In this document: positions 5,316-61,016 of the stretch, one piece after another
Numbering within the stretch: the stretch's first letter is position 1
Layout: each line of letters starts with the position of its first letter
Origin: Ureaplasma urealyticum serovar 8 str. ATCC 27618
GTDB lineage: Bacteria; Bacillota_I; Bacilli_A; Mycoplasmatales; Mycoplasmoidaceae
Length of the DNA stretch: 64,000 nucleotides
Assembly: GCF_000169535.1 (NCBI RefSeq)
Contig: NZ_AAYN02000002.1
Location: 612,642 to 676,641, forward strand
Reading direction: 5' to 3'
Notes under the pieces: generated by a model
What the model was told of the DNA's origin: nothing
The model's input: the letters and a program-made list of their open reading frames with translations, nothing else
Databases searched by the model: none
Position numbers and translations under genes: made by a program

Positions 5316-8300
5316 TTAATTAGTTGTTGTAAATGAATAATCATTGTGTTGAGGATTATCTTTTTTTGCTTGATTACGATTATAAATTTCGTTATTGTTA
5401 TTAGCAAAATTTCATTTATAAGTTAAATAATTTGGCTTTTCACTAAAGTAAATACGATTGATATAGTATTTTGTATTCGGTTCTAAATTATTAATTTTAT
5501 TTTCTGATATTAATCATGATGTTAAACCTGTTTGTAATTCTTGATGTTTATTAGGGTCAACATGATTTTTAATTAATCCATCAAATTCTTTATCTGTTTT
5601 CGAAAGTGTGATTTGATAAGGTCCTTTAATATTTCCTTTATCATCAATTAATTCTAAATTAGCAACTAAACCATCATGAAAAGCTTGGTCGTGGGAAATT
5701 AATTCTAAATTAAGATTAACTTGGGTTGGTGAAATGTTTCTAATATACTTATTTTCTTTATTTTCATTAAAATCACTTGCAGTTGTTAAAATCGTGTTTT
5801 GACTTGGACGACAACGAATTGTTATAGAGCTTTGATTAAAAATTGTTCAAGTATTATCATCGTTTAAAACTTCTATTCGTTCAAAATTATATTCTCGATT
5901 AGCAATTGGTAATGGAATTTTAACATACATACGGTTTTTTAATTTAAATAAAAGATTTTCTCTATTAATTATTTGATCAATACTACCAATATCATTGCTA
6001 TAAGCCATAAACTCTTTTTTTGTGCCATCAACTGTTGTATAAGAAAAAACAAAACGTGCTTTTTTATTTACTAATCAAGGATATTTAACATTTAAAATAA
6101 ATAATTTCACTTCACAAACTGGATGATTAGTTTTTTTATCAACATCAAGTGTGTTTTTTGGATATTTTTCCATCAAAGCTATTGATAAAGGATTTTGTAA
6201 TTCAAAATTATAAGTAATTTGATTTAATTTATGTTTTTCATCTAAATTATTTGGATTATTTTTATCTAAATAATAAATATTATCTAGTTCATATAATGTA
6301 GCAGTTTTAATGTCATCAAACTTTAAATTAAATTCGATCATTCACTTATTTATTTCATTTTTAATTGGTGTACAACTAATAGCGTTAGTTTTAATTTTTT
6401 TGACAATCTTGTTGTCTTTGTATTTAAAAGTTGCAGCAAATGTAAGGTTTTTTAGAATATTAGGATTGGCTTTTAATTCAACTTTTAATTTAATATTAGC
6501 TTCATTTTTACGTTGAAAATAATCTTCTTGGTTTTCTAATGGTAATAATGCAAAATCATTATTGATTGTTAAAGGTTGATTTTTTTCTTCTTTTGTATCA
6601 TCATAAATAATATTAGTATCTAAATAACCAATATTTACAATTGCTTTAGGTGGCTTTTGATCAAATTCAATTTTATTAATAAAAGATGTTTTATTTAATT
6701 CTAAATTATCTAATCGAGCTGTTAAATATTTTTTATTATTTTCAACCACTACATAAGCTTTTGCAATTTTATTATTATCATAATTAATAGTTGCACTCAT
6801 ATTTGTATTTAAAACATTGGCTTCATCACTAATTTCAAACTTTATATTTGTTGAATTAATACTATTTGCTGATCGCGGTTCTTCAACTAGTGAACTTGTT
6901 AAAACTTTAACTAAGGGTTTTCTAATAATCACTTTGTTAATTTCTAAAATATCATCTAAATTCGCAATATTGTTATTGACTGTTAGTTTATTATCAACAA
7001 TTCCAATTAATGTATATTTATGATTTGGCGCAAATAAAGTATTATCATTTGTCTTTAGTGTTATTTTTTTGCTAACATCTACTATTGCTTGTATTGTTTT
7101 TATTTCATTAGTATTATCAATTTTGAATTTAAGTTCAATCTTTTTATTAATTAAATTTGCATCGTTAAAATTTATTGTATAATCCCCGTTTTTTAAATAA
7201 TTAACCACTATATTTGGTCTATTAAGAGTTTGTTTTTGATTATTAGATAAATCAAAATTGTGTACTAATTCAATATTTTCATCACTAGCAGAAACAATTT
7301 TTTCTAATCGATACTGGTTTGGTTTTACTAATTTTCCAATATCAAAACAAATCTGACCATCATTATCAACTTTAGCTAATAATTTATGCAATTTATTATT
7401 TTCATCTTTAAATATCCCATATACTTGTTGGTTAACATAATATGGCGCTACTTTAGCAATTAAATTGATATCACCATTTTTTGTATATTGATATGGTTGA
7501 TTTAAACTATTAACATTTAAATTGTTAATAGTTTTATTATGATATGAAATATTAATTGGATTAATAACTTTAACTAAAGGATGCGTGTTATTTTTATAAA
7601 TGTTAACTAATTCATAGAAGTTATTATTTGCTAATTTACTTACATCAAAATCAACATTTCCTTCTGCATCTACTTTAGCATTAATACTATAAATTTGATT
7701 ATTTAAATCTTTTAGTTGCAAACTAAGAGAAGAATTAAATAATCACTTTCCTACATTTATTCGGTATATTTTTTGATTATTTTGGTTAATAAAAGAAGCT
7801 GTTTTAGGTGGTTTACTAATCATAATTTGATGTTCAATCGCTAACTCATTTTGTTGAATTAAAACGTGATTGTAATCAGTTTTGTCAAGAATTTTTACTA
7901 AACGATAATCATGATTATTTACTAATTTTGATGTATTAAAATAAGCAACTTTATCTTTAATAGTTGGTTGTATGTAATGATATTGATACTTTTCATCAAC
8001 AAAAACACCCATAATTTGCGGATTCTTTTTAGCTTTGTTTTTTAAATTAACTTTAATAACAATATCACCAGTATTTGAATATTCATTGGTTTTATCTATT
8101 TTAGATAAAGTTAAACCAATTATGGAATTAGACAATTTATTTTTTTGTAATCGATAAACATTACCTTGTGGTAAATGGTTATTAATCTCAGTTTTAAGAT
8201 CTTTTTTATCATGAATTTTTAATCAATAAGAATCATTATTTTGATCTACAAAAATAATTGAATTCTCCTTATCATAAAATCTTAAAACAATTCCGACTAT

Positions 8301-8393
8301 GACAGCTGATCAACATAGATTTAAGCATATTAAAAAAGAAGCAATTTTAATATGCTTTTTTCAATGTATTTTCTTATTATTTTTCATTTTCAT
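5316..8393 (-). CDS. Membrane-anchored repeat protein (DUF1410-like), 1025 aa
   Basis: Predicted surface protein with no recognised enzymatic domain. All fragments between 5316 and 8393 share one frame and join at TGA-Trp codons. ATG 8393 (or 8387, same frame) gives a Lys-rich N-terminus, then one hydrophobic segment (about residues 17-38, ending IVGIVLRF) without a lipobox, suggesting an N-in, C-out anchor like those of the two giant proteins. The ectodomain has Asn/Lys-rich beta-strand modules of about 80 residues with a recurring NGDI...V..VYG.F.DENN pattern. A different C-terminal part (about 250 residues, ending DYSFTTTN) closely resembles the broken gene at 63250-64000. An 80-bp stretch (7417-7496) is almost identical to 26520-26599 in the first giant gene. 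DUF1410 assignment comes from overall character and is uncertain; adhesion or immune-variation roles are speculative. Confidence 0.8.
7417..7496. repeat. 80-bp patch nearly identical to 26520-26599
   Basis: Partner of 26520-26599, in the same orientation about 19 kb away. This looks like recent gene conversion or strong constraint. Confidence 0.85.
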
Positions 8394-8704
8394 ATTAATA
8401 TTTATTTTCTAAAACGATTTAACATAATTTAATTAAAACACATTTTTTTTTTTTTTTTTGAATTTATTTTGTGTAAATACCAATATTTCATAAATTGCTA
8501 CACTAAAACCCTTTTATAAAAAAATATTAAGCAAAAGCATAGTAAACAATAATTCAGCTTAAATAATAGTGCTAATCTAATATTTTAAATTGTGTTGGGA
8601 AGTTAAAAATTTAAAATATGATATCATTTATACAGTATTTTTGGACAATTTAAAAAAAAGTAAAATTGTTGGAATTTAAAAATAAATAAAGGGAGAGTAG
8701 AAAT
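8394..8704. promoter_or_regulatory. Divergent intergenic region between repeat protein and BMP lipoprotein
   Basis: 311 bp with no gene. It holds the T17 tract, a TTTTGTGTAAATA motif (8467-8479), a GTGTA...TACAC inverted pair (8471-8475 and 8499-8503) and, toward the plus gene, a possible -35 TTGGGA (8595-8600) and -10 TATGAT (8617-8622) 16 nt apart. A strong AAAGGGAGAG ribosome-binding site is at 8688-8697. Promoter assignments are by eye. Confidence 0.45.
8443..8459. repeat. Homopolymer T17 upstream of the 8393 gene
   Basis: Seventeen T on the plus strand (A17 on the coding strand of the minus gene), 50 nt before its start, between a TTTACACAA motif and the ATG. Tracts of this length are prone to slippage. 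Confidence 0.9.
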
Positions 8705-10446: not shown

Positions 10447-10583
10447 TGTGTTATATAAATCCATTTTTAGTAAATAAGCATTTAAAATACTATATAAAAG
10501 CGTATTTAAAATGTTTGTAGCACTTCAATAAAGAACAAATTTAATTTTTAATTAAAACAGATTTTATAATTTATAAATAAAAA

Positions 10584-10611
10584 GTCTACCTTCTTTTTAT
10601 AAAAGGTAGAC
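10584..10611 (-). terminator. Terminator of the first giant gene
   Basis: Stem GTCTACCTT (10584-10592) with AAGGTAGAC (10603-10611). On the minus strand the hairpin is followed by TTTTTATTT, 43 bp after the stop at 10655. Confidence 0.82.
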
Positions 10612-10654: not shown

Positions 10655-13600
10655 TTACAATCAAATTATTTTTGTTTTTTTATTATTTGGGACTAATGCA
10701 ATTTTTGCATTATCTTTTTTATCATTTGCTCTTCAATATTTAATACCATAAAATTGATATCTTGAAGATCTTGGCATTTTATCTAAAGGTAGTTGAAATT
10801 GTCCAGGAGTATTATAATTTTTGTTAACATTATTTTCAATTATTCCAACTGTTGTATTATAAATTTGACCATTATCTAAATTTTTGTACATAACTTCACC
10901 AAAAATAGAATCATTTTGATTATTCATATTATTAAAAATAAGTTTTCTAACACTTCCACTAAAACTAACATAAGTATAACTTGCATTATTTGTAGTATAA
11001 ATGTTATGATCAACATTCGTAATATCTACTATTCCAGCATAATTACTTGTATTAGAACTTTTGTATATAACTGAACCATTTTTATTAGTATCATAAAAAA
11101 TATTTTCTCAATCATTATTTATGTCTTTATATAGGTAAGAATTTGGTTTATTTTCAAATTTTACAATTCTTAATTTATATTCATTATTTTGATCATTTAT
11201 ATCAATATTGTTAATATGAATTTGTAATTTAGGTTTACCATTGTCATTTACAATTTTAATTATTGGGTTATCATCAATTTTATTGGTTGATAAATTTTCC
11301 ACAATAGCACGAATTTTATATGAATTTAATAATGATTGAGAAAATCACTCATCATCATTAGTAATATTAAATTCCATTATTCTTGATCAAATTTGTTTTT
11401 TTTCATCAAAATTTGTAATATTTTTAAAATTAGTTAATTTTGTCACACTTGGTTCAACAACAAATGTTTTACCATTTAATTTACTAATATCTATTGAAGT
11501 AATATTATTAGTATTATGATTTATTTTAATAATATTTTTTAAAGTATATTCACGATTATAAGTTAAATTTTCAATATTAACGCTATAATCTTCTTGATTT
11601 TTATTTAAAGTTAAGCTTACTTCTTTTTTAGAAGTTGAATTATTGTATCTATACTCTAATACTAATCTATCACCATCATTGTAATCTTTTATATCCTTAA
11701 TTTTTAATTTAATAATTCTTCTTCTTAAATCATTAGTTTTTTCATAAGTAATTGATTCGATATATGGATCAATACCTTTAGTTAAAATTTTATTTTGATT
11801 TTGTTCAATAATGTTAATGTTTGTGTTTAATTCTGTATCAAATAGATCATTGCCTGTTGGTCTTGATAATTTTATTGAAGATAAAATGTATTCTGTATTT
11901 GGCTCTAAATTAGATATTTCTCCTTCAAGAATCCATTTATTATCTTTTCTTACTAAATTAATTGTTTGTATAAATGTCTTGGTACTATCACTAACTTTTT
12001 TAAATACCAATTGGAATTTAGAATTTGTATTTAACATTGTTCCATCATTAGTAGTTGTAATTTCAAAAGCATACTTTGCACTATTAATTGTTGGTTGATC
12101 CCAATTTCCGTATTTTTTTGCATTATATATTGCTCAATTTGTTTTAAAATTAATATTCTCTAACGTTCTTCTTTGTGCATCATTAATTGGTGAAATAATT
12201 TTATTACCATTTACATCTTCATAAGCTTTGTTTGGTTTTTTAATCATTCTTATTTCTTTTATGTAATATTCATTTCCTTCATCAAGATTTACTAAATCAT
12301 GTTTAATATTTGCGTATAATCCATCATTTCTTGAATCAATGATTGACATTGTATAAACTTTCATTTTATCTTGATTGTTTGGATATTTTTTATTAGCAAA
12401 AGTTACACTTATCTTATCACCATTTTCTAAAATTTTATCTAATGATTCTAAACCTAATCTAAATTTAGCAGTAGTTATGCCAATATTTGATTTTCACAAT
12501 TGATTTTCATCGCCTTCTGTTTTAAATGTTACTGCAGTTGGTGCATGATGATATATAAATGAATCAGCAATATTATTTGAATTTAGCAATTCTTCAAAGA
12601 TATTATTATTTGAAATTAAAATCTTTTTGAAAGAATATTTTCTATTAGGAGTTAGTTTACTAATATCAAAATTATAACTAGTTTTATTGTTTGATAAAGT
12701 TAGTTCATTAGTTTCTCATTCTTGATGATTATTATCTTCATATACTAATTTAATTTTTTTGTTAATGTAATTAGAATTAATTCTTGAAAATTCTGCTTTT
12801 ATTGTTCCTATCACTCTATTAGGATTAACAGCATTTTCTTGTATATTGTAATAAATATCATTATTTGATTCTAATTTCAATAATTTTAGTTTATCAATTA
12901 ATGTTTTGAATTTAGTATCTAAGTTACCTCCATATATTACATTATTTTTATTTATTGTTAACATTCATTTAGCTAAATCTGGCTTATTTTTAAATTTAGC
13001 TGATGTGAATCTATATTCTGTTTCTGGTTTTAAATCAGTTAAATTTCATTTAATTTTAGCACTATTTTTATTTGCACTTACTTCGCTTAATACACCATCA
13101 ATTTTTTTAATTTCTGATGGATTTGATGTAGATACAAATGTGGCTTCAACAATTTGATTATTTTCAAAAACTTGATCAGTTGAATTAACTTTTACATTTA
13201 TAGTAGCACTATTCTCAGTTAAATTTGTTACCCAATTAGAATAATCGATAGATAAATTTGTATTATAAGGATTAATACCAAATTTATGACTAACACCATT
13301 AATACTTAAATCATTAAACACTGTATTAGTATCTTTTGAATCAGTAATTTGAGCTTTAAATAATTTATATTCACGATTAGTAATCAAATCCTTATCAAGA
13401 ACTAAATCGTAAATCTTTTTATTATTTTCCAATGTAACTTCTTTTGTTCAAACAATTTCCTCATTATTATCCTTATAAGCTAATTTAATTTTTCTACCAG
13501 CATAATTATCATTAACACCAGAAACAGTTAATTTAATTGTTTGGGTTGTATTATTAATATTATCGTTTGAAGTAATATTTACAATAGTTGTTGGTCCTGA

Positions 13601-16600
13601 TATCGTTCTGAATTTATAATTTTCATTATTATTAATAATAATATTTCCAGGTAATAAATTTTCATATGCTAAACGTGGTTTTTGAACAAATTCAACTTTT
13701 AATAATTTATATTCAGTTTGCTCATTTAATGTGGCCCCTGTTTCAACATTGATTGTAGCTACAGTTTTATTAGAATTAACTTCACTAATTTTTCTAGTCC
13801 ATTGACTTATTTGACCATTATTTTTATTTTCAAGATATACGATAACTGATTGATTAGTTTCAAATATTTGATCAACAGATTTTAATTTTATATTTAACTC
13901 AGCACTATTATACGTAATATTTAATGGAGCACTCCATTCGATGCTTGTTGTTGATGGGTTTCGTTTAAAACTATTATTTACAGTATTTTGTTTTTTTAAA
14001 TCAATATATTGAGAATTATTTTTATCATCATTAATTTGTATTTTAACAAAAGTATAATTTCTATTAGCTATCAGACCACTTAGAGTAAAACTATATTTTT
14101 GCATACCTTTTTTTAAATTAACTATATTGCTTTCATATAATTCGTTATTTTGATCACGATAAATTAATTTTACTTGGCGCCCATTATATTGATCATTTAC
14201 TCCAGAAAATGTTGCATTAATCGTTTGAGAATCAACACTAATTTCATTCGTTGATAACAATTCATTTAAAATTGTAGGTCCAAATTGGGTTGTAAATGAA
14301 ATATTTCTTTTATTTTCGATAGAAACATCTAAATCTTCATAAACATTGCTTGGTTTTGTAATATTAATTGAATTTAATACGTATGTTGAATTTGGTTCTA
14401 AATTATTTATTTTACCTTTAATTAATCATTTCCCATTTTCTTTTAATAAGTTAACATTTACTTGTTTTAAAGTACCACCATTTTTATTAAATGTTACCGT
14501 AGCTGTTGCATTTGCATCTAATTCTCCATCATTATCATCTGTTTTTAGAAGAAAATTAAATTCAGCACTTGTATCTGAAGGATTTAATCATTCGCCATTT
14601 TTAGAAATTATAGTGTGTGATTTGTTTATTTTAATTTGATAATTAATGTTATTTAATTTTGGTAATTTATTACTTTCAACAATTGTATTTGAATTATTAT
14701 TTACTAAATAATACACATCAACTAATGAATATAACTTATTAGCTTTTAAATTATTTAAAGTAAATCTAATTGATGTCTTTCCGTCATTATTTACTAAAGA
14801 TGACCCATTAATAACATTAGTTTCAATAATATCATTATTTGTTGATTTGAATTTAGCTATAAATCTTAAATTATGTGCTATTTTAGGATTAATTTGCAAT
14901 CCAAGATCTACATCGATATTGTTTTTTTGATTAGCGTTTTTAACAACTATTTCTTTATTTATTGGACCATTAACAATAATATCGTTATTAATTTCTAATT
15001 TAGGCATTGAATCATTATTATAAATGATATTATTAGATTTATCAATTCCAATATTTTCAGCTGCTATACTTGGTTTATTATTAAAACTAATATTTACTAT
15101 ATTTACTTTATCATTAAAATTTAAATCAACTAAAGTAGCAGTTAAATATTTGATATTACCACTTACAGTAATAAATCCCATTGCTTGTTTATTATTACCA
15201 TAAACAATAGTAGCTTGATCTTTATCTCTAAGTACATTATCTGGATCATTTAAATTAATTTTAATAATAGTAGATTTTAAATTAGTTGAGACTCGATTAT
15301 TAATTTCTTCAATATTTAATGCATTTATGGCGCTTGTTCTTGTTGTAATAAAACTATTTGTTAAATTACCTTCTTTTGGGAAATCTGAAACATTATTATT
15401 ATCAATCAATTTTACATCAATTAAGGTATATGTCCGATTACGTTTTAAATTATTTAACAATATATTATATTGTGTTTTATTAGATTCAATTAATACCTCA
15501 TTAGTATAAATTGATTCGTTAGTATCATTTGATTTATAACTTAGTTTTATTTTCTTTCCAACTCATGATTTTTTAACTCCACTAAGTGTAAAATTAATTG
15601 TTTGCGAATTTGTGTTAACGCTATTACTTGATGTAATATTTATTAATTTGTGGTCGCCAACTTTCGTTGTAAATTCATAATTTGAATTAATAGAATTTGT
15701 GTTATCTAAAATAACATTATTTTCACTATTATTGATATTATTTTTGGCTTTTGTTGGTTTGTTAACAAATTGGATTTTAACTAATTTATAAGTTGTTTCT
15801 TCTTTAAAATTAACACTATTACTTAAATCATGCGCTCAAGTTCCTTCTTTGAAATCACTAGTTACATCTTTTAATGGTCTTGTGTATTGTAACCATGTAT
15901 TAGTATCTCTAATTGTTTCTTTAGGAGCAAATCATGCAACTACTTGTTGATTATTTTCTAAAATTTTATCTTCTGATTTAATTTTGAAATTAAAATTAAC
16001 ACCACGTGTCCCAACAATTGTAGCACTACTATCATTTCATTGAACTGTAGTATTTTTTGTTTGAGTAATAAATGTATTTGACACACCATTTAATTTTTGA
16101 AGATCTTCAAAATTATTAGTATTAGAAATATGATTTATTTCAATTTTTTCAAACCTATATTCTCGATTTGAATTTAAATTTGATAACAATAATTGATAGT
16201 CATTTTTACCTTTTTGTAATGTAATTAAAGAACTTTCATAAATAACATTATTATTATCTTTATAAACTACTTTAATCTGACGTCCATTATATTTAGAGTT
16301 AACTCCTGATAACGTTACATTAATAGTTTGTTGAGTATCATTAATAGCATCATTTTGAGTTTGAATAACTTTTAAAACCGGATTTCCAGTTTCAGTAATT
16401 AAACTTATATTTTCTTTATCATTAATCGATACAGATAAATTAGTGTGAGTTTTTAATGGTTTACTTAATTCAATATTTTCTAATTTATATTTAGTTTCTG
16501 GATTTAAATTATCGATTTGACCTTTGATTAATCAATCATTATTTTCTTTAATTATACGAACTATTTTTTGCTTAATATTATTATGTTCATCTTTAAATTT

Positions 16601-19600
16601 AACAGTTGCATCAATGTTATCTAAAACATCATTATCATCTTGAGTTTCAATTTTAAATTCAAAATTAGCTGTTGTATCTGTAGGTGATTTTCAATTTCCA
16701 TGTTTACTAATCATCGTAACACCTGGATTAATTTCAATTTCCTTAGATACATTATGGTCCTTAAATATTTTTCTTGTTTCATCAATATTTTGATGAATAT
16801 TATCTAAGTAATAAACATCAACTAATTTATATAATTGATTTGATTTTAACCCCTTAACACTAAAAAGAACTTCTTGTTTGCCTGTTTTATTAATATCATT
16901 ACCATCAATTAATTCGCTATATACTTCATGACCAAATTCATTTCTAAATTTAAGCTTAAATTTAAGATTTTTAGCTATATGTTTGTTTATTGTAAATTCA
17001 ATTGATGAATTAATACTTTCTTTATCATTATAATTTTTAATTTCAAGATGTAAATTATTAGATGATAATGGACCACTTATTCTAAAATCATTGTTAATTT
17101 TTAATTTTCTAGTTTCTTCTGTTAAATTTGTTAATTCATAAATTTTATTCGAATTATTAATACCAACACTATCAACTGCCTTATTAGGACGAGTTATAAA
17201 TTCAATTTTATTGATAATTGTATCATGATTAAATTCAAGATTAGACAAACTAACTTCTAGGTATTTCTCATTATTTACTGTAATAACTTTTGCATTTGTT
17301 TTTTTATTTGTATCATATGTTATTTCAGCAATTTCGTTGTTACTTAATACATCCTCAGGATCATTTAATGAAAATTGAATTTTTGCTACATTTAAATTAT
17401 TTATTACTCGATCACTAATCTCATCTAACTTATTGACACTAATTGGTGTTTTTCCTTTAATAATAAATGAATTTTGAAGATTTTGCTTATTTGGAAAATC
17501 AATTCAATTTTGACCATCAAATCATTTTATGGATTTCAAAGTATATTTGCGATTGTATTTTAAATTATTAAAATTAAAAACATAATTTAATTTATCTTCT
17601 TCTAAATTAACTTTCGCCTCTACTTCATCATTTGTATTAGATATATATACTAATTTAGCTTCTTTGTTAAATCATTCACTACGAATTCCATCAATTGTAA
17701 CATTAACATTTTGCGAATTTGTTAGTGTTTCATTTGATTCAATATTTATAATTCCATAATTACCAGGTTTTGTTTTAAATGAAATATTAGTTGGATTAAT
17801 AGTTTTAAGATTAGAGTTAGCATTTAGTGGCTTAGTTAATACAATAGACTTTAACTCATACTCTGTTTCTGGTTTTAAATTATTTACTATACCTTCAATA
17901 AACCAAATGTTTCCTTCTTTTTTTAATTTTACATTGTTAACAAATTTTGTATCATTTTGATTTGATTTTGATGAAAAGATAACATCAGCCATAACATTAT
18001 TATCAAATATGTCTTCATCATCAGATTCAACTTGTAATTTAAAATTTACACTGTTTGAATTGATCTGTCATTCAACATTATTTTTTTTAAAAGTTGTATT
18101 ACCGGGTTTAACTTCAATTTCATTAACAACATTATTAGATCTTATTAATTTATTATTATCTATAAGATCTTGATCGTCTTGATTTAATAAATAATATAAA
18201 TTATCAAAGTGATATAAACGATTTGATTTTAGATTTGGAATTCTAAGTTCAATAATTTGTTTTTTACCTTCTTTTTTGATTGAACTATAAGAAACAATAC
18301 TTGATTTTACGGTTTCATTATTTTGATCTTTAAATGTTGCTATAAAGTATAAATTTTGCAAAATATTATCATTAGCTTTTAATTCTAAATTAACTTTTAC
18401 ATTAGTTTTATTATTATATTCTAAAGTAATACGTTTATTAGTATCACTTTGAACAGGACCAATGACACTAAAATTATTATCAATTTTTAATGGATTTATA
18501 TTGTTTGTATTGTTATATATTTTATTGCTATTATCTATTCCAATATTCGTAGCAGCTTTTATTGGTTTATTAATAAAAGTAATACTGTTAATAATAGTAT
18601 CTTGGTTTAATGCTAGATTATTGAATGTTGTTTCTAAATATTTTTGACTCCCTACAATTTTAACTTTTGCTTTTACAGATAAATTCTCACCATAATTAAT
18701 GATTGCTTCTTCTTCATTACTTAAAACATTATCAGGATCATTTAATATAAATCTAATTTGTGTTGATTGTAAATTATTTTTTGCTCTTGCAATTGGCTCA
18801 ATTATTGAACTTATACTAATCGATTGTGTTTTATTAACAATAAATCAATCAGCTATTCCATTTTTTAAATGGAAAATTATTGGTGTTTTATTATCATCAT
18901 CAATAATTCTTACTTCTTTTAGTGTATATTTACGATTATGTTTTAAATTAGACAATTCGAAACTATAATGATTATTGGCTCAAAGCAATGTTTTTTGATC
19001 ACTTAAAATTTCTTCACCGTCATTTGAAGTATATACCAATTGAATTTTTTTATTAATTCAAGTTCGTTGAATTCCATCAATATCAATATTAACTGTTTGT
19101 GTTGTAGTATTTATAGAATCATTAGAACTAACATTTGTTACTTTATGATCAACAATTAAGGTTTTAAAATTATAATTTGAATTGTTGTTTTCAAAAACGA
19201 TATTATTAGCATCATTATTAATATTAGTGTAAGCTAATGTTGGTTTTCTAACAAAGCTTACTTTTATTAGTTTATAATTTGCTTCTTCTTTTAGTGTTTG
19301 ATCAGTATTAAAACTAACTGTTGCCTCACTTCCATCACTACTTACACTTGTGATCGTTTTTGTATATGGTATTTGTTGACGTTCATCATCATTAGATTTA
19401 AAATAAGTAATAATACTATCACCCATTTGAAATACGTGATCTTTAGATTTTAATTTATATGTAATTGTTGCACTTGTACTTGTTATATTTGTTGCTAAAT
19501 TATTATTTTCAATGACTATTTGTGTCTTTGATGCACTTACATTAAAGTTATTCGTAACATTTGTTGAATTATTAAGTGTTTCAAAATTATTATTAGAAGT

Positions 19601-22600
19601 TTTTATTTTTATTTCTTTAAAAGAATATTGACGATTAGCAACACTAATTGGCAGTGTGAAAGTATATTGTGTTTGATCTTTTTGAAGAGTTAGTTCATTT
19701 GATTCAACTAAGCTTTTTTGATTATTACTTCTATATTCATAGACTAACTTAATCTTACGATTATTATATAGATCATTAACTCCTGATACTTTAGCAGTAA
19801 TTATTTGTTGATTTGATGCATTAGGTTGATCATTTCACGTTAAATCATGAGACGTAATGCTAACTAATTGTGTTGGTCCACTTTGAGTTGTAAAACTAAT
19901 TTGTTCTTTATTTTCAATTTGGATTTTTAAATTAGCAAAAGCATTCATTGGTTTAGTAATTGAGATGTCATCTAATTTGTATGTATCATTATAAGCTAAA
20001 TCACTAATAGTATCTTCAATATACCATTGATTATCTTTTTGTTTTAGTTTTGTTGTAATTGTTTTTTTAGTATCATGTTGGTCACTAAAAGTGATAGTTG
20101 CCTCTAAATCAGTACTAAAATCAACATTTTCATCTGAATTAATATTAAACTTAAATTTTTGAGCATTTGGTTGTGGGAATGTTCAATTACCATTTTTTTG
20201 AATCGTAGTAATCGTTGGTTTAACAGTTATTTTATAATCAACGTTTGAATTCTTCTCAAATTTATTATTTTCATCAATATTAGTTTGATTTGATGAATTT
20301 ACATAATATAGTCCTTTGAAAATATATTGACGATTTGATGTTAAATTAGTTAAATTAAATGTTAATTCTTTTTTATTATTGTTATTATTTGTAACAATGT
20401 TATCTGCAGCAATTGGACTTGTTAAAACGCTTTGACCATCATTACTGTCAAATTTTGCAATAAAATATAAGTTTTTACTAATATGATTATTTGTATTTAA
20501 TTCTAATGAAACTGAAATATTTGTTTTATTATTAGCTTCAAACTCTTTTAGTGTATGAAGTGGGCCAGTGATTTTTAAATCGTTATTAATTATTAAATTA
20601 GTAGCATCATAAATAACATTAGTATCATTAATACCAATATTCTTACTTGCATTTTTAGGTTTTGTATTAAATTCAATTTTATTAATGATAGTATCTTTGT
20701 TTAAGACTAAATTACTAAAAGTTGCTTCTAAATATTTTTGATTTTGATCAGTAATTACTTTTGCACTAGTAGTTTGATTATTATTATAAGTAATAGTTGC
20801 TTGTTCATCATTACTTAAAACATTATCTAAATCATTTAATTCAAACCGAATTTTTGCACTATTTAAATGATTTACATCTCTATCTTGAATTTCAATAATA
20901 TTACCAACCCCAACTTGATTATTACTTAAAACAATAAATTTATCTTGAATCGAATCACTTTTATTAAATGGTGTTTTAGTGCTATTATCATTAATTAATT
21001 CAATTTTAGTAAATGTATAAGTTCGGTTTTTATCTAAATTAGTTAATTCAAACTCATATTCTAATTTATTTTTTTCTAATTTAATTATAGCGGTTTTTGT
21101 TGAGTTATCGTTTGCACTATAAGTTATTTCTAATTGTTTTTGATTTCATGCATTTTGTATACCATCAAGTTTTAACTTAATTCTTTGTTTTGTATCTACT
21201 GTTGATGGATTTTGTGATTTAATTTGAATAACTTTATAATTACCAGCTTGTGTTTGAAATGAAATATCGTCTTTATTTAATATTTCAACTACTAATGGCT
21301 TGTTTGTTTTGTTTGGTTTAGCTAATAGAATTGATTCAAGCACATACTTGTTTTCTGGTTCTAAATCACTAATTTGGCCTTTAATTAAATATTTATCATT
21401 TTCTTTAGTAATATTAACTTTAATTGGTGTTAGTAGAGTTTGACCTTTTTTAAAACTAATTGTTGCTTCTAAATTATCTAAAACTTCATTACCATCATCA
21501 CTATTAATTACAAACTCAAATTGTGAACTTGTTGATGTAGTATTTCAAGTATTATTTGATTTGCTAATTGTTGTTTTACCAGGTGCAATGTCAATTATTC
21601 GAGTAACATTATTTGCTTTTGGTACTTTGTTTTTGTCATTAATAGTATCATTATTATCATCAATATAATAAACATCAACTAATCTATATAATTGATTTGA
21701 TTTTAAATTATCTAAAGTAAAATTAATTACGTTTTTATTGTTATTAACTATAATTGAACTATTAGTTAAAATTGGACTATAAACAACTTCACCATTGATA
21801 TTTTGAAATTTAAGTTTAAATTTCAAATTCTTACTAATATGTGGATTAACTTTAAAATCTAGTGTTGAAGAAATTACGTATTTGTTATTAGCCACTATAT
21901 TTTGTGTACTATTAACATCAGTTGATAATGGACCAATGATTTGGAAATCATTATTAATAATTAATTTATTTAAATTACTTTCGTCATAAATTACATTTGT
22001 ATTATTTTTGCCAACTTTAATAAAGGTTTGAGCTAAATTTTTAAATTCAATTTTTTTAATAATTACATTTTTATTAAATACCAAATTTGTTATTATTGCT
22101 TCTAAATATTTTTGATTTTGTGCATTAGTTTTTACAATAGCATCAACTTTTTGTTCGTTATCATAAGTAATTGTTGCAATATCATTTGTTTTTAAAATAT
22201 CATTGTCATCTTTTAAATTAATTTTAATAGTTGTTTGATTTAATTTATTAGGAGCACGATCATTAATTTCTTCTACGCTTGATGCTGTAATTTCACTTTG
22301 TAAATTAACATCAAATGAATTATTTACATTGATTTCTTTTACAAATTCCTGATCTTGGCCATTGTCAACTTCTTTAATATTAATTTTCTTTAAACTATAA
22401 CGTCGACCTGGTTTTAAATTATTTAATACTAAACTATATTCTTTTTTATCAAAACTTAGATGAACACTATTGTTGTTATTATCAACTGTTGTTTTAATTT
22501 CAGGATCACCTAAAATGTTTGATTCATAAACTAATTCAAGCTTTTTATTATTTCAAGCTCGCTGAATACCATCAATTTTAACAGTAATTTCTTGTTGTGT

Positions 22601-25600
22601 TGTATTTGTTGATGTGCTTGACATCACACTAATAACTTTATGTTCAAATTTTTGTGTCGCGAATTCATATGCTTGTGAACCATTTTTATACTCAAAAATA
22701 ACACCATTTTTATTTAATGACTCATATGCTTTATTTGGTTTATTTTTAAATGTTACTTTGATTAAACGATATGTCGTTTCTTCTTTTAAACCACTTAAGT
22801 TAAATTCTAATTCACCTTCATTAAATGAATTAGTTACATTATTTAATTTTCCTTCAACTACTTTTTGATCATTTAAATTATTAGTTGGAGCAAAAACTGC
22901 TTCGACAATTTGATCGTTTTCTAATGCTTCATCATTTGTTTTAAGCTTAAAATGTACTTGAGCATTATGTGCACTAATTGCTTTAATAGCATTATTAGTA
23001 TCATAATCAATTCTTGTTAATGATGGTTCAAATTCAATTTTTGGTTTATAAATCTTTGAATCAAAACTAATTTGATTATTTGACGTATTATTTACTGAAT
23101 TTTGATCATCAAAATAATATAAACCTTCTAATTCATAAGCACGATTATGAATTAAATTAGAAAGTTTAAAACTAATTTTAGCATTTTTATTGAATAAAAT
23201 TGGATCAGTTCAAACAGTTTTATTATCGTTTAACTGCTTGAATTTTAAACGTAAATATTGGTTTGCTAATAATTGCTTATCAACTTGAAGATCAACATCA
23301 ATATTTACTGATTTATCATTCTTGTTAATTGTTTGGGGTTTATAAGATGTTGGATTAATATTATTTGATAAACTAATTTTATTTTGTTTATCATATGAAT
23401 AAACAATGTTATTAGTTTTATTATTAGTAAAATTAAAATATGCATTAGTTGGTTTTGAATTAAAACTAATTTCTTTAATAACATAATTTTGATTAATTTT
23501 CAAACTAGCTAAATCAAATTTTAAAAACTTTTTATTGTTTTCTACAACAACTTGGGCATTAGTTGCTAATTTTAAATTATTATTGGCATCATTACTATTT
23601 TCTAATTGATAAACAATATTTGGTTTATCAGCTGTAGTTAAAACATTATCAATGTCATCAACTTCAATCTTTGCTGAAATTAATGATTGGTCATTATTAA
23701 CTAATATACGGTTTGTAACTTCAATATTAGTGTTATTTTTTAAAGAAACTGCATTATTACTTGGATTAATGCTAAATTGATGAGTTAAGGTGTCTAACTT
23801 ATGTAATGCTTGATTATTAGTTTCATAAACGATTCTAGAAAAAGTATATAAACGATTCTTAATTAAATTTGAAAATTCGAATTGATAATTTCTTTTTCCT
23901 TTGATTAAAGTAACTGCTTTTGATTCAATCTCTTTGTTATCATTTGATACATAAATTAATTTAACTTGTTGATTATCTTGAAAATCATCACCTATATTAA
24001 TTTTGGCATTTATTATAGGAGCTTGATCATTATTTCAATTATCAATTGAATTCAGACCCACTAGGGTTGTGTTTTTATTAGATGTACTAAAATTATTATT
24101 TGGATCTAGTAAATCAAATTCACTATTAACAATACTGCTTGCACTCTTATTTAAAGTTTCAAGTTTTTTAATAACATATGTTGTTTTTTCTTTTAAACCA
24201 ACCAAATTGAATTTAATTTTATTATTAGCAACAACTTTTCCATATCCAATTTGTAGTTCGTTTTTAGTGTTATCAATATTTTGATAATAAATTTTAACAT
24301 CATCATTAATTCGTAATTTTTGATCATGATCTTTATAATCAATAAATAAATTAGCATGGTCTGCAAAAATATCTTGTTCTACAGCGCTTTTATTAAATGA
24401 TAAATTTATCTTATTAGGGTTTGTAATAAAATGTTGTTCATATTTTGTAACATCATTTTTAAATAAATACACCTTTTGGTTTTGGTCATTTAAATAATAT
24501 AAGTTTTTAATACTATATTTACTATTTCCTTTTAAATCAAGACCATTAATTGAAGCGATTTTATTAGTTTTACTAAAATTAACTAAAGGATTAATAACAT
24601 CTGTATCTAATAAATCATCATCCATTAAAGCTAACTGTGCATAGATTTTTTGATCATTTTTTAAAATATTATCTTTATCATCAATTTCAAAGGTGATAGT
24701 TGTATCATTATTAGTCTTAACAACCGCATCAAATCTAGTTCAAATTGGTGGATTAATAGTAGTTGCTGAGCTTGTTGTGAATTCAAAATTTAAAACATCA
24801 TCTTTAATTAATTTTATTGGTTTTTCTTTGTTATTTAATTCTAGTAATTCAACATCAACAACTTTATATTTTGTGTTTGCATCTAAGTGTGTAAAATCAA
24901 AATTTAGTTTATAGTTGTTAGTTTTTGGATCATAAGTTGCAATGTATTTTTGTGTATCATTTAAATCATTAACTTTAGCAATTGTTAGTGCAAATTGACG
25001 ATTATAAGATAGTTTATTTAAATCAAATAAGTTTACTTGGAAATTAATAGCATTTACTGTTACGTTAGAAACTGCTGGTGCTTTTAAAACAAGCTTACGA
25101 GCTTGATCGACACCATCATTAATTGCACTAACATCTTTGTTAATACTATTTCTATCTAATATTGTTTTGTTTGGATATTCATTTAAATCTACAATCTTAT
25201 CAAAATCATAGATTTTGTTAGGATCAAATAAATTATTGTTTGGATTAACAATAACTTTTCCCTTATCATCAGTTTTGATTGGAACATGAATTTCATTGTT
25301 ATTTTTATCTTTATAAACAGCAGTTAAATCTTTATTTTTTTGATCTGGTATTTTAAACTCATGCTTATTATCAGCATTAACATTACCATTTTTTTGTTTA
25401 TTAACTATTCGATCTAATGGTGAAATTTCATCAATATTAGCAACTTTTTTATTATCAGCTTCAATTTTTGTTAGTGTATATTTATGATCTGGTGCAAAAA
25501 TTGTATCATCACTTGTTTTAAAAATAGCTTTTCCATCTAAACCAATACTAGCTTCAACCGTTTTTGTATTAGTATTATTATCATCGGTTTTAAATGTTAA

Positions 25601-27919
25601 TTTAATTTTTTTATTTGCTAAACTAGGATTTGAAAAACTAATTTCATAATCATCATTTTCTTTAGTTTTAGCAGTTATTGTTGGTTTTTTAAACGAAATA
25701 TGATTATCACCACTTAATTGCTCTTCACTAATTAGATCAATGTTTGGTTGATTATTTTGTTTTAAAACGACTTTTTTAAGTGTGTATATATTAGATTTAG
25801 TTGGGTCATTATTTGCTAAATTTTTTGTTGGAATAATAACCTTGCCATTAGCATCAATACTTACATCTATCTCATGTTCTATACCATCTTGATCAACAAC
25901 AATCCCTTTGGTATTTGGATTATTTAAAGCTTTTTGCTTTAAATCATCATTTAAATCATTTGCTAATTGAGTGTGAATCTCTAAATTTCCATCATTATCG
26001 TACGTAAAATTTGGATGTGAATCTAATAAATTCAAATCTCGTTTATCAATTATTTTATCTTTTAGTTCAAAATCATTAAGATTAATGACTTTATTTAAAT
26101 CGTTATTTTCAACTTTAGCTAAATGATAAATATATCCTTTTGGTAAATCATTACTATCAAAAATAATTTTATTATTTTGATCCACATTAGCAACTACTTT
26201 ATATTCTTTATCATTATTATCAACAAAAGTTGCTATTAATTTTTGATTAATTAAATCATTATTTAAATTTTCTAAAATTTGAGTTTTTTTAGTTGAATCA
26301 ACACTTGCATTAGCAGCTGGTTTTTTAATTAATTGTTTTTGTTTTGAAGTTAAATCAAAATTTGAAGCCAAAACATTTTGTGGGTTTGAAACTGAAACAA
26401 TTTTGTCTAATGAATAATTACTGTTATTATTTAATGCACCTGTATCAAATGCTATGGTTCCATCTTTTTTAACTTTTGCTAAAATTTGGTGTTCTTGATT
26501 ATTTTGATCTTTAAAAATTCCATATACTTGTTGGTTAACATAATATGGCGCTACTTTAGCAATTAAATTAATATCACCATTTTTTGTATATTGATATGGG
26601 GTGTTTAATGCGTTTGAATTTAAATTATTAATTGATCGATTATGGTATGGGATCTGTTTAAGATTAACAACATCAACTTCATTAGTTTTTTTAATACCAA
26701 TAACTTCATATAAATTATTATCACCTAAAGATGAAATATCAAAAACAGCTAGTCCTTTTTCATCTGTTTTTGCATTAATTTTATATGTTTGATGATTTAG
26801 ATCTTCTAAGGTAAATTCAAGAGTAGTGTTTTTTAATTGAACACCTAAATCAACTTCATATACTTTTTTGTTATCAATAAAATTAACTTTAGCTTTTGCT
26901 GGTTTGTTTACACTAACTTTATGTTCAAGCATTAATTCATTATTTGACACTAAAACATCATTTAAATCATTATTGTTAACAATTCGATTTAATTCATATT
27001 TGTGATTTAAAGGTAATTTTTTAGTATTAAAATACCCAACATTATTTTTTACACTCAACGCTGGTATTAAATATTCTTTATTATTTTCATCTTTAAAAAC
27101 TGCTGTTGGCAAGGCTTGGTTTTTAGTTTTATTTGTTAAATCAACTTTTAAAACAAGATTACCTTCATTATCATAAGTATGTGTTTTATCAATTTTTTTA
27201 AACTGTGCATCAATATCATTAACATTTACAACTTTTGTTAATGGATTTGAATCTTTTAAAATTAGATCTTTTAAATAATAAATATTGCCATCTTTTAAAC
27301 TACTTGTATCAATATCAATTTTTTGATCTAATCCAACATGTGCTTCAATACTATAAACTTCATTATTTTGATTTACAAATTTTGCGACTAAAATTTTATT
27401 AGCAAGTATTTTATTTACCTTTAATTGAATGTGCTTTTCGTTTTTTTGATCCTCATATACATTAGTTGGAACTGGTTTTAAAACTTCAATTTTCTGTTCA
27501 GGTTTTAGCTTCTCATTTTCACGAACAATGTTATTATTTAAATCAATAATTCGATTTAGCTTATATTTACCTGTTTTTGGTAAATACTTAGTATCAAATT
27601 CAAATTTTGCATAAGAATCAATTTGAGTTTTTATTTTATATTCTTGATTGTTTTCATCAACAAAAACACCATAAACATCTTTGTTAATATAAGTTTTTGG
27701 TAATTGACCTTTAATGATTAAGTCACCATCATCATTAAAACTATAAAAATCATTATTACTTAATTCATTATTATTTTTTGAATGTAAAACAATCCCAATA
27801 ATTGCTCCTGCTCACGCTAAATTTAACGTGGCAAGCAATAAGAAAAGACGTTGTTTACGATTCTTTTTATTATTATCATTTTTTATTGTTTGGATTTTTT
27901 TACTTTTTTTATTATTCAT
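10655..27919 (-). CDS. Giant membrane-anchored repeat protein 1 (DUF1410-like), 5754 aa
   Basis: One open frame of 17,265 nt under code 4. Every fragment with standard stops lies in this frame, and at the joins I checked they connect at TGA-Trp. ATG 27919 follows AAGGAAG at a good distance. Residues 1-24 are Lys/Asn-rich, 25-45 form a hydrophobic segment (LNLAWAGAIIGIVL) with no lipobox, so I infer an uncleaved anchor with about 5700 residues outside the cell. Residues up to about 1050 are ~80-residue modules (NGDI/NGNL start, DENN.E centre, NHxYxL end). The rest is built of larger Ig-like modules with conserved signatures: DPxNVL, NRxYxL.xI, KPxKAYxN, SNLxFKxKF, NQLYRLVDVYY. No catalytic motif was recognised. 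Calculated mass is in the 600-kDa range. Function unknown; a surface fibre, adhesin or shield is the natural guess. Confidence 0.85.
10900..24740 (-). repeat. Long-module (type B) super-repeat block of giant protein 1
   Basis: A DPDN(V/I)L-type signature recurs near 15240, 17360, 18735, 20830, 22205 and 23650. The spacings are about 1.38-1.45 kb or 2.1 kb, so a set of three to five different modules repeats as a unit. Conserved Trp codons (TGA) often mark module borders. Confidence 0.7.
24740..27700 (-). repeat. Short-module (type A) repeat block of giant protein 1
   Basis: Tandem modules of about 75-90 residues, each opening with Y-(D/T)-x-(N/E)-G-(D/N), carrying F-x-D-x-N-N and a VD.NG.I.F segment, and closing with H/N-x-Y-x-L. 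The same module type forms the N-terminal part of giant protein 2 and most of the 5316-8393 protein. Confidence 0.7.
26520..26599. repeat. 80-bp patch nearly identical to 7417-7496
   Basis: Differs from 7417-7496 at a single position by my reading, inside genes that are otherwise diverged. It encodes QYTKNGDINLIAKVAPYYV and the following residues in both proteins. Confidence 0.85.
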
Positions 27920-28000
27920 AAATGCTTCCTTTATGTACTATAAAAAATACTATTTTATAGCATTAATAACTGCAACTAAAAATGCTCATAAAATGATAGC

Positions 28001-28015
28001 AAAAAAAAAAAAAAA
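28001..28015. repeat. Homopolymer A15
   Basis: Fifteen A on the plus strand (T15 in the minus transcripts), between the 28145 lipoprotein stop and the giant gene 1 start. Confidence 0.9.
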
Positions 28016-28103: not shown

Positions 28104-28130
28104 TAGTTTGTGTAAAATCTTTGTGTAAAA
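28104..28130. repeat. Solo sequence resembling an IS terminal repeat; tandem TTTGTGTAAAAT
   Basis: Two tandem copies of TTTGTGTAAAAT (28107-28118 and 28120-28131). The 27-bp block starting TAG resembles the left terminal repeat of the IS at 62212 in order and spacing: TAG, then TTT, TAAAATC, TTGTGTAAAA. There is no transposase remnant beside it. It may be an excised-IS scar or a regulatory motif. Confidence 0.4.
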
Positions 28131-28144
28131 TATACTCTCATATC

Positions 28145-31100
28145 TTAGTTTACTTTAGGAATTTTATGACCATTAATTTTAATACTCTTTAAAAATTGTG
28201 TAGAGATCTGATTTGAATCAAGATTTGAGCATATATCTTTTAAATCATTTAATCAATAACAATTTTCATTAGTTAGTGTAATTTCAACACTTTTATTATT
28301 ATTTTTATTAATTTTTGCAACTATTTTTGACTCTAAAGTATCCCCATCACTATTGTTATATACATAATTTAATTCAATATTACATTCTTTATCTTGGGAT
28401 AAATTACTTAAAAATATATCTTGATCAAAAGTAATATTAATTTTTGGATCAGATCCATTAACTTCATATTTAATATTATCTACTTTTCATTTTAAATTAG
28501 GATTTAAGATACCAGGAAAATTAAAATAGCGTTGGTTATCTACTCAAGTTAAATCTAAATTTTTATCATTCAATTGAATTGAATTAATTCGATATTCGAT
28601 ATCAGGCTTTAAATCTTTTAATTCAAATTCAATTGTTTGGTGCTCATAGTCGATTTTTAATTGGTTATGAGCATTTAAATCAATACTTTCTTGTTGGTTG
28701 TTTTCATCTTCTAACACTAATGACATTTTATGAGTGTTTTTATCTTTAAAGATGAAATCGCTAAAATGCAACTTGAATTTAATGTTTTTTTGTTGTTGGT
28801 TAATTTCATGATCAATTTTATCTAAGTAAAATTGATCAAATCCCTCATCTAAAGTTTTAAAAGTCTTGTTATTGATATTTTTTAAATTAATCTGTTGCTT
28901 ATCAATAATAAGTTCACTAATTTCATAATCAGTATTAAAGTCTAAATTATCTAATTTAGTTAGTACTTGGTGTGTTTTTTTGTCAAAATAAAAATCTGTT
29001 TTAAATAAATACAACAGCTTGTTTGTTTTTTTATTTTTTAAAATAACATCAACTCTTTTTGGCATATTTATAACTGCTTGGTTTAGTGTTAATTTTAAAG
29101 TACTATTTGTATTTTTAATATCATTAAATTCTAAATTTAATAATAAATGTGGAGATGATTCATTAAGTGTTTTAACTGTAATATTATTAGTTAAATAATT
29201 ATCATCATCTATTTCAAAAGAAATAAGTTTGAATGTTTGATTTTTATCTAAAGCAAAAAGATGTAAAATAATGTTTTTTGTTGCATTAAGTTGAGTAGTT
29301 TCTGATTTTGATAAGTTTTTAACAAACTTATATTTATTATGATTTTCATCTTCTAAAGTATATTTTATTTTATGCTCAATACTATCAGCATATTGATTGT
29401 CTTGTAAATCAACATTTAGATCGGTTGAAGTTGATTTTGTATTTGTGAATGAAAAAACAGCTTTTTTGAACTCATTTGTTTTAAATTTAAGAAATGAAAG
29501 ATCCAAGTGAAATGGATGAGAATCAAAAAAATCTCCTATATAAACATTTACATTAAAAGGATCACTATGGTAATTACCATCAACATCTTCTAAGATAAAA
29601 CTTACAAATTCATAATTAATATGATTATCTAAATTTAATAATTTAATTTTAATTGTTTTTTGATCTTCATCAATACTCATGAAGCAATTTTTATCTTCAA
29701 AACTAAACTCCTTATATGCTCATTCATTTGGATTATTTAATGGATGATATCTTAATTTAATTTTGGGTTTTAAAGAATTTTCTTTTCTTAAAAGTAATTT
29801 TTCACATTTAATATTAATAATCGCACTATTTTTAGTAATATCCGAAATGAAAAGGTGTTCTTTATAATCTTTTTTCACTTCTTTTGATCTTTCATTATCA
29901 TGTTCTTTAGTAGTTGATAAATATCAAAACCAACTATTAAAAGCACTATAGTAAGAATTATAGAATGATTTATCTTTAAAAATTTCAATACTTGATCGAT
30001 CAGGACGTATTTTAAATGTTTTGTTAATAGGTCCATAATATCCACCTGCATAGTCATCATCACTAGGGAAAGATACTGGTTTACCATTTAATAAGATATC
30101 ATCAATTTCATAAGTTTTATCAACATCTAAACCATTAATTACAGCAGTTAATGAACGTTCTTGTTCATCGTATTTAACTTCTGAGAATTCAATTGGGTTT
30201 TGATCATTTTCTTTCCTAATTAAAAATTTAAAATTATGAATATTGGGATTGTAGAAAGCAAGATCTTCAGATAATTTTACTTTGATTGTAACTGCTTTTG
30301 TAATTTTATCAACAGCTGTTTCATAATCGATAGCTTCAACTTTAGCATAATCGCCTTTTGTTGTAAAATCATGTGTTTGATTATTTAAATTTAAAACTTG
30401 ATCATTAATCTTAATTTGTTTAATATCATAATGAGTTCCTCTTTCTAATTCATCAATATAAACAATAATTCTCTTGTTTAATTTATCAATAAAAAAATGC
30501 TTCTTATTAAGCTCTAATTGACCTTTTTTATAAACTCTATTATATGCTAAACTAATGTGGATGTTATTTAAAGCTTCATCACTATCATCTTTTATTTTTA
30601 ACTCTTTAAAGTTTAAAGTTAAATTAGCACCATTATCATTAATCTTTGTAATTTCTAGATTTTTTAAAAGATTATCACTATCATCAAGGGTTTTAAAACT
30701 GTGGTTTGGAATTGAAGTTAATTGCACTTTTTGATTATTAAAATTAAGTTCATCTAATAAATATTCACAATCAGATGTTAAATTATAAACAGTAGCATCA
30801 ATTTCATTTTTTTGCTTATTAAAAACAGCATCACTAGTAATGATTTGGTGATTAGTTTTTTTGACAATTTTTAAACTAAAATTATGAATAGCATCGTCTT
30901 TAAAAGAAACTGTTTTTAACTTAATCTTTATATCAACTTGGTTTTGTTTAATATTTGTAAACGAAATATCATTAATTTCTAAATGATCAATCTTCGTTAT
31001 ATTAGGAAGTGATGGTTGTAAATTTAAATCTTCATTAATATCTTGTTCGATAAAATTTAAAGTATGATCAAAAATTAAATGTTGTGCAGGAAATGCATCA

Positions 31101-31456
31101 TTTGAAAAATTAATGATAAAATGATCATTAATTTTTGGTTTACGAGCTAGCCTTAAATAAATTTTGTTATTAATAATCAAAGGATGAATATTTTCTAAAC
31201 GGTCAACTTTTTTATTTAACAATGGATTAAAAAGATTGGTGTTTAAAATTAAATTCTTATAAATACCTTGTGAAGTATTTAGTTCATTAACTTCATAAAC
31301 AACATAATAATGGTCACTCTTGGTATGAATTATATCTTTCATTAAAACATTAACATTTAACTTTGATTTATTACTACAAGATGCAAGTGCTGTAGCAACA
31401 ATAGGAACTAAAGCAGCTGTAAATAAAAATAATAACTTTTTCTTAATTAATTTCAT
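28145..31456 (-). CDS. Repeat lipoprotein, 1103 aa
   Basis: Predicted surface lipoprotein of unknown function. From ATG 31456 the signal peptide is Lys-rich then hydrophobic, with lipobox L-A-S-C at Cys27; after cleavage Cys would be lipidated and the rest exposed. The frame runs through TGA-Trp codons (29924, 28544 and others) to TAA 28145. The ectodomain has recurring elements such as TKxxVxIKIKLK, LxxLxxDxxYEIxDIxLN and a short linker, each about 100 residues, resembling the modules of the giant proteins. No enzyme motif was recognised. The first part (Y-V-V-Y-E-V-N-E-L-N, then RLARKPKINDHFIINFS) is closely related to the lipoprotein at 36652-39393 (Y-I-A-Y-E-F-N-K-L, RLPQRPKPNEKIIINSS), so these two are paralogs. 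The coding-strand motif TTTTGTGTAAAAT lies 26 bp upstream of the start. Confidence 0.85.
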
Positions 31457-31530: not shown

Positions 31531-31546
31531 AAAAAAAAAAAAAAAA
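31531..31546. repeat. Homopolymer A16
   Basis: Sixteen A on the plus strand, 75 bp upstream of the 31456 lipoprotein start; also the tail of the hairpin beside it. Confidence 0.9.
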
Positions 31547-36630: not shown

Positions 36631-36646
36631 AAAAAAAAAAAAAAAA
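36631..36646. repeat. Homopolymer A16 just after the 36652 lipoprotein stop
   Basis: Sixteen A on the plus strand, 5 bp beyond the stop of the 36652-39393 gene and 126 bp before the nuclease start. It is T16 in the transcript. I see only a weak TTAA/TTAA hairpin ahead of it, so it is either a poor terminator or a slippery spacer. Confidence 0.88.
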
Positions 36647-60804: not shown

Positions 60805-61016
60805 ATAATCACTACCCATTTCTTTAATAAAGGAGTTATGTATCTTGAGATACAAAACAGTTATCAACTTACAACTTTTTTTGTGTAAATTAATAAACTA
60901 CACAAATTATAATACTTATTACCTTATATTTAATAAAAAAATTGTCTTTATAGCATTTAGAAAATACTTTTTAGTATAATTAAATTTAATAATAAAATTT
61001 ACAAACAGGTTTAATT
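60805..61016. promoter_or_regulatory. Divergent control region of giant gene 2 and the 61017 lipoprotein
   Basis: 212 bp containing an inverted pair TTTGTGTA...TACACAAA separated by 11 nt (about 60879-60905), a TATAAT at 60908-60913 and another at 60975-60980 on the plus strand, the latter suitably placed for the gene at 61017. Promoter calls are by eye. Confidence 0.4.

Follow-up and report, generated by a model that had tools for sequence, protein, structure and literature searches.

A 64,000-nucleotide stretch of Ureaplasma urealyticum serovar 8 str. ATCC 27618 (the window; positions 612642-676641 of the 873,729-base main contig, C2, in a genome of 881,828 bases and two contigs) carries on its minus strand, at 10655-27919, a single gene whose product, hereafter the giant, is a repeat protein some 5750 residues long. 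We consider this protein to be probably a phase-variable, extended, membrane-anchored surface filament that acts as an adhesin and/or an antigenic screen. It has two relatives of comparable or greater size, one of 5806 residues within the window and one of 9769 residues elsewhere on the main contig. The three giants sum to 64 kb or 7.3% of the genome; the initial annotation had remarked on the large share of a small mollicute genome taken by such a gene. The coordinates of all features are collected in Table 1.

The initial annotation had proposed a single 17.3-kb gene with a fitting start, ribosome-binding site and terminator, and end-to-end translation with genetic code 4 bears this out: the 17,265 nt run from ATG to TAA with 35 TGA and 8 TGG codons and without an internal TAA or TAG, and are flanked by a Shine-Dalgarno sequence and an intrinsic terminator. 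The strand, which had been left unstated, is the minus strand. The first frame of the plus strand contains 391 TAA/TAG stops, the remaining two frames of the coding strand contain 487 and 903, and given the base composition the probability of 5754 stop-free codons is about 10^-215. The G+C content at codon positions 1, 2 and 3 (34, 25 and 9%) is typical of a real gene. That TGA is read as tryptophan, as had been suggested, is corroborated by the fact that TGA encodes the conserved tryptophan of all five type-A domains (residues 1789, 2258, 2954, 3416 and 4119). Under translation table 11 the gene would break into 36 non-empty pieces, 17 of which would be called as open reading frames (ORFs) of at least 60 amino acids, close to the 20 or so false genes foreseen. 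The strong selection that had been deduced holds for one part of the protein: the ratio of nonsynonymous to synonymous substitution rates (dN/dS) versus the 9769-residue paralogue is around 0.26 over the N-terminal 1040 residues. Elsewhere selection is weaker (0.5-0.64), with a less certain alignment across the repeats; the MAFFT comparison of the C-terminal parts (0.64) possibly mixed non-equivalent repeats and was not relied on. Codon-position bias, the dN/dS of about 0.26 and the placement of TGA at conserved tryptophans establish that 10655-27919 is coding. The minus strand, the second giant, the T15 tract before the promoter, the domain anatomy and the function go beyond what the initial annotation contained.

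The protein combines an export signal, in the form of one anchor helix, with thousands of residues in about 50 repeated domains, as expected of a giant adhesin. Residues 26-47 are the sole hydrophobic segment above threshold, and cysteine is absent from the whole protein. Given the basic N terminus and the single helix, the positive-inside rule puts the remainder almost certainly outside the cell, the helix being a predicted signal anchor of the non-lipoprotein kind. DUF1410 (PF07198) was recognized in 12 stretches within the first 1920 residues (E 1.3e-93), and the three thirds of the giant score 307.8, 29.9 and 49.9 bits, all above the Pfam gathering cut-off of 25.5. The domains of the array beyond were detected by means of a profile derived from the giant's own sequence; tandem domains recur every ~115 residues and number about 50 in total, versus 84 in the 9769-residue paralogue. 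No piece of the giant gene matched Pfam fn3 above the cut-off, and NCBIfam provided no model. The ectodomain is rich in Asn, Lys and Thr.

Fold prediction specifies what these domains are. The AlphaFold model of a two-domain pair from the array (predicted local distance difference test score, pLDDT, 96.1) shows the seven-stranded Fn3 beta-sandwich, and its best structural matches (VIA-align 2) among the top 1000 Foldseek chains were tandem Fn3 pairs with Z 8.5-9.8, namely tenascin (1tdq, Z 9.8) and LAR (6tpu, Z 9.7), followed by neogenin and fibronectin. The large two-domain root-mean-square deviation of these matches probably reflects a different hinge between the domains. For the array alignments, non-overlapping domain pairs were used. 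The model of a DUF1410 pair (pLDDT 85) had as its top Foldseek match 6xi3, the extender region of a large adhesion protein from bacteria (E 6.9e-5), the next being the Bap domain 7dm0. A search of the PDB by sequence profile yielded nothing for the Fn3-like pair and nothing convincing for DUF1410. The models attach a structural label (Ig/Fn3) to a domain that Pfam lists without a function.

The array is not a monotonous one. Domain clustering resolved titin-like super-repeats of four to six domains, in the order GABDE-ABDEC-GABDE-ABDEC-FABDEC-FC, and about ten such blocks in the 9769-residue protein. It is this ordered pattern of domain types that produces the periods of 230, 460, 700 and 1160 residues in the giant. 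In a tree of the ABDE blocks, blocks 2, 4, 7 and 10 of the 9769-residue protein each have one of four blocks of the giant as their partner, with a support of 0.98-1.00 and with the order kept. The array therefore predates the gene duplication, and its length has since been altered by whole blocks. Recent repeat expansion was considered as the source of the length and rejected, as the copies are old: they are 31-56% identical at the protein level and at most ~83% over short stretches of DNA.

The second line of evidence concerns the region upstream. The giant is preceded by a T15 tract and the 9769-residue paralogue by a T17 tract, both 82 bp before the start codon. Within the 185 kb that were surveyed (C2:560001-745000), there is a single A/T run of 9 nt, no run between 10 and 14 nt long, and then six in the range 15-17 nt, where a Markov model expects a smooth tail with around 18 runs of at least 10 nt. 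All six long runs, including those of the giant and the 9769-residue gene, lie 50-126 bp upstream of surface-type genes. The crude chance of such a placement within intergenic DNA is 2e-6, with the list of envelope genes made by hand. T15 is a long tract beside a promoter, beyond chance. On the main contig as a whole, 14 of the 15 tracts of at least 13 nt sit 47-126 bp upstream of a gene with a signal peptide, anchor, lipobox or mba repeat, and in two other Ureaplasma genomes four tracts were found 70-82 bp before lipoprotein or signal-anchor genes. We regard switching of the giant by slippage at its T-tract as likely. Inversion of DNA of the type known from the multiple banded antigen (MBA) was rejected as the switch, considering that the 25-nt recombinase site is absent from the 64-kb window at up to 3 mismatches. 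At C2:797000-804000, three tandem lipoprotein genes carry A15-A17 tracts 47-50 bp upstream of their starts, thus with A in the orientation where the giants have T.

A short motif, TTTACACA (consensus about AATTTACACAAA), accompanies these genes. Fifteen intergenic sites were found in the 185 kb versus 2.9 expected, a fivefold enrichment between genes. Nine of them lie 28-203 bp ahead of genes for DUF1410-family proteins or lipoproteins; the remaining six fall in the gene-poor stretch at 674.9-679.3 kb or near a DUF1410 remnant at ~739 kb. A housekeeping gene was in no case the nearest downstream gene, with one site also located 242 bp before ackA, on its other side. Within the surveyed region the intergenic sites all cluster around surface genes or what is left of such genes. 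Another 78 kb yielded five intergenic sites, three of them ahead of genes for lipoproteins or anchored proteins and two with no gene in the 350 bp that follow. The giant's own copies also fit the DnaA-box-like sequence TTWTNCACA.

Taken together, the data suggest the following arrangement. The basic N terminus and one transmembrane helix would leave the rest of the giant extracellular. Closest to the membrane would be the nine or so DUF1410 Ig-like domains, followed by some 40 Fn3-fold domains and finally the distal C-terminal end. Fn3 arrays measure 3-4 nm per domain. The shape is very probably extended. With a possible length of roughly 150-200 nm, about the dimension of a whole cell, the filament would keep its distal end outside the cell coat, in the manner of giant bacterial adhesins. 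Slippage in T15 would alter the activity of the promoter and yield ON and OFF cells, hence stochastic expression; the sister genes carry tracts of their own. Since size would change by whole super-repeats, the frame would stay open. A role in adhesion as such has, in our estimate, an even chance. On the more general proposal, that around 14 surface genes genome-wide are each under their own T/A13-17 slippage switch, often with TTTACACA, including titin-like strings of up to 9769 residues that are switched randomly, we lean neither way.

Several observations weigh against this interpretation. The -35/-10 assignment was made by eye, the tract lengths are known from one genome, and the 5806-residue giant has no long tract upstream. 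In the two other Ureaplasma genomes several tract regions have no ORF of at least 70 amino acids starting within 250 bp downstream, and one tract precedes a gene that does not look like a surface gene. The fold match of DUF1410 is moderate, the C-terminal end (residues 5621-5754) has no match in Pfam, and no known adhesive or ligand-binding domain was recognized in the giant. The latter point also fits the most serious alternative, in which the filament is an antigenic screen or decoy: it would shield the membrane and soak up antibodies, lack a specific adhesive end, and undergo phase variation and block loss for immune evasion alone. The Asn/Lys/Thr-rich composition of an ectodomain that is almost wholly one diverging domain type, and the climb in dN/dS from near the anchor to further out, are in line with it. 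Nevertheless, the order and identity of the super-repeats were kept since before the gene duplication, which is more order than a mere screen needs, and the C-terminal ends of the giant and the 9769-residue paralogue resemble each other (by eye). A screen alone is possible, although we think it the lesser chance. Constitutive expression of the giants, with the tracts being ordinary terminator U-tracts or A+T-rich noise, is a different matter. Three of the 15 tracts follow hairpins of -10 to -12 kcal/mol and T15 follows a weak one, so that some tracts may indeed be terminator U-tracts. Given that strong hairpins occur at three tracts only, terminators do not explain the tract set: most tracts lack a hairpin, including the homologous T17 of the 9769-residue gene, whose upstream neighbour gyrB is divergently oriented. 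In addition, the bimodal lengths are unlike terminators or noise, the giant's own terminator has T5, and some tracts consist of A when read along the coding strand of their gene. This explanation is therefore unlikely.

The two remaining explanations concern the nature of the protein and of the assembly. A very long Ig/Fn3 string in super-repeats of four to six domains, as is generally known from titin, might serve as an elastic or motility component, comparable to titin or to the leg proteins with which some mycoplasmas glide, instead of as adhesin or screen. Gliding is not known from ureaplasmas, and switching and a species-restricted distribution suit an optional surface factor and not machinery, so that we attach very little weight to this possibility. 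Repeats can also confuse an assembly, the genome is in two contigs, and genes could have been joined by error or a decaying pseudogene could happen to be open. Against such an artefact stand the one frame throughout, the purifying selection and the existence of two independent giants with the same plan; moreover, collapse of the assembly is unlikely because the repeat copies are too different from one another. An artefact is in practice refuted.

The switched filament that we favour resembles several known systems in part. The Vlp proteins of M. hyorhinis are encoded by homopolymer-switched surface genes with a long A/T run beside the promoter. The position of the run is the likeness; the giant differs in that its tract lies ~80 bp upstream of the start, has the T orientation and is accompanied by the shared TTTACACA motif, while switching is here predicted. 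With titin-type arrays the giant shares ordered super-repeats of non-identical Ig/Fn3 domains and a length altered by whole blocks, but it is bacterial, presumably extracellular, and without a detected sequence relation. The adhesins with Ig-like extenders (6xi3, Bap) provide the best fold match of the DUF1410 pair, whereas no sequence relation was detected, the anchoring differs and no known ligand-binding end was found in the giant. The DUF1410 proteins of Ureaplasma belong to the same domain family, far above the cut-off and also in the neighbouring lipoproteins; Pfam gives them no function, and in the giant DUF1410 makes up the membrane-near fifth, the remaining domains being mostly below the Pfam cut-off and of Fn3 fold. 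In Apilactobacillus kunkeei, the extracellular Asn-rich repeat proteins Giant1-5 (3000-8000 residues) take up ~6% of a small genome (PMC12863079). Like here, several giant repeat proteins occur in a small genome, and two of them, Giant4 and Giant5, contain beta-sheet domains in arrays (PMC12863079). In contrast, the A. kunkeei genes are consecutive, in a walled bacterium, with helical repeats in Giant1-3, an N-terminal beta-solenoid in Giant1-4, and C-terminal SH3b-like wall-binding domains (PMC12863079), while the Ureaplasma giant has an anchor in the membrane, is built of Ig/Fn3 domains and comes with a tract at its promoter. MBA and the UU172 element are likewise variable surface proteins of the same organism, but they switch by DNA inversion at the 25-nt site and carry short tandem repeats (PMC3511179, PMC3047005).

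Long proteins without known homologues have been noted in general for Mycoplasma and Ureaplasma genomes (PMC4706650), DUF1410 is already known as a Ureaplasma domain, as are giant repeat surface proteins in other bacteria, and the giant gene is probably already annotated in public strain genomes. In the open-licence literature neither the Fn3 super-repeats nor the 9769-residue gene, the tract set or the motif turned up, which is weak evidence because only such papers were searchable. There, DUF1410 is named only in work on other subjects, and for homopolymer or slipped-strand switching in Ureaplasma only work on MBA relatives ranked near the top. Discussion of surface variation in Ureaplasma has centred almost entirely on MBA and the inversion systems related to it. 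The giants (64 kb of 882 kb) and the many lipoproteins would constitute a second, larger surface system, most of it with a candidate slippage switch, and a reduced, near-minimal genome keeps exceptionally long genes and spends ~7% on proposed filaments. These proteins are relevant to vaccines and serology, as they could be the main component of the surface and still vary between individual cells.

Table 1. Features of the giant gene, its product and its surroundings. Positions refer to the window unless preceded by C2 (main contig).
Feature	Position	Strand	Details
Giant gene	10655-27919	minus	5754 codons (code 4); ATG at 27919, TAA at 10655
Shine-Dalgarno sequence AAAGGA	27927-27932	minus	from sequence
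Putative extended -10 TGCTATAAA	27954-27962	minus	inferred; TGTTATAAA at the equivalent place in the 9769-residue paralogue
T15 tract	28001-28015	minus	candidate slipped-strand phase switch
Two TTTACACA copies	28109-28116 and 28122-28129	minus	upstream of giant gene
Intrinsic terminator	10579-10611	minus	3' of giant gene; hairpin, 11-bp stem, then T5
N-terminal cytoplasmic stretch	27845-27919	minus	25 residues, 10 Lys/Arg
Predicted transmembrane anchor	27779-27844	minus	residues 26-47; no lipobox Cys
About nine DUF1410 (PF07198) Ig-like domains	25070-27778	minus	residues 48-950; ~95 residues each, in pairs
About 40 Fn3-fold domains	11060-25072	minus	residues 950 to ~5620; ~115 residues each
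C-terminal end	10658-11059	minus	residues 5621-5754
Whole super-repeat region	13319-23071	minus
Super-repeat GABDE	21293-23071	minus	domain clustering
Super-repeat ABDEC	19565-21277	minus	domain clustering
Super-repeat GABDE	17801-19573	minus	domain clustering
Super-repeat ABDEC	16094-17800	minus	domain clustering
Super-repeat FABDEC	13988-16099	minus	domain clustering
Super-repeat FC	13319-13996	minus	domain clustering
Second giant	43399-60819	minus	5806 residues, ~47 domains; TTTACACA motif 63 bp upstream
Third giant	C2:564600-593909	minus	single 9769-codon frame, 29.3 kb, 84 domains; exceeds both giants of the window
Short paralogue (anchor and DUF1410 domains)	5316-8393	minus	1025 residues; A17 tract at 8443-8459
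DUF1410 lipoprotein	28145-31456	minus	1103 residues; T16 tract at 31531-31546
DUF1410 lipoprotein	32893-35010	minus	705 residues
Signal-anchored Exo_endo_phos nuclease-like protein	35195-36505	minus	T16 tract at 36631-36646
Small DUF1410 lipoprotein	61017-62153	plus	also above Pfam fn3 cut-off (30.6 bits)
Partial copies (dnaG, membrane protein, type II topoisomerase A subunit)	41405-42583, 40150-40926; C2:687506-689452, C2:679927-682950
Partial copies, continued	C2:560026-562227 vs C2:597357-599915

Within the genome, the 9769-residue paralogue is 74% identical to the giant at the N terminus. Short paralogues with the same type of anchor have 774, 1025, 1152 and 1313 residues, and DUF1410 lipoproteins also surround the giants. 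Close relatives of the giants were found in none of nine other Ureaplasma genomes, three of which gave weak DUF1410 or Fn3-array matches, and beyond the genus there were only traces. The N-terminal 933 residues found no relative among the genome contigs searched, a set that probably leaves out the source organism's own record, and phage records contained no match. In another Ureaplasma species (G004:C7:1-5568), a gene of at least 1855 residues with Fn3-like array matches is cut by the end of the contig.

The genome carries mba-type TKPGSGET repeats and a UU144-like protein, and its thymidine kinase shares ~91% identity with that of Ureaplasma in PDB entry 2b8t. The small contig C1 (8.1 kb) matches the mba region at C2:450000-459000 in its DUF1410 scores and its T16 tract, and may represent the mba locus in another arrangement within the culture that was sequenced. 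The DUF1410 loci are adjoined by partial copies of dnaG, a membrane-protein gene and the gene for a type II topoisomerase A subunit, as if co-duplicated. The product of 35195-36505, of the endonuclease/exonuclease/phosphatase family, is a candidate surface nuclease and may be phase-variable too. Finally, two type III methyltransferase (mod) genes contain in-gene tracts, (TC)9 at 3081-3098 and (TC)8 at 4819-4834; the former gene is out of frame past its tract, the latter is intact, and a res gene comes after them, so that these genes look like a phase-variable type III restriction-modification locus.

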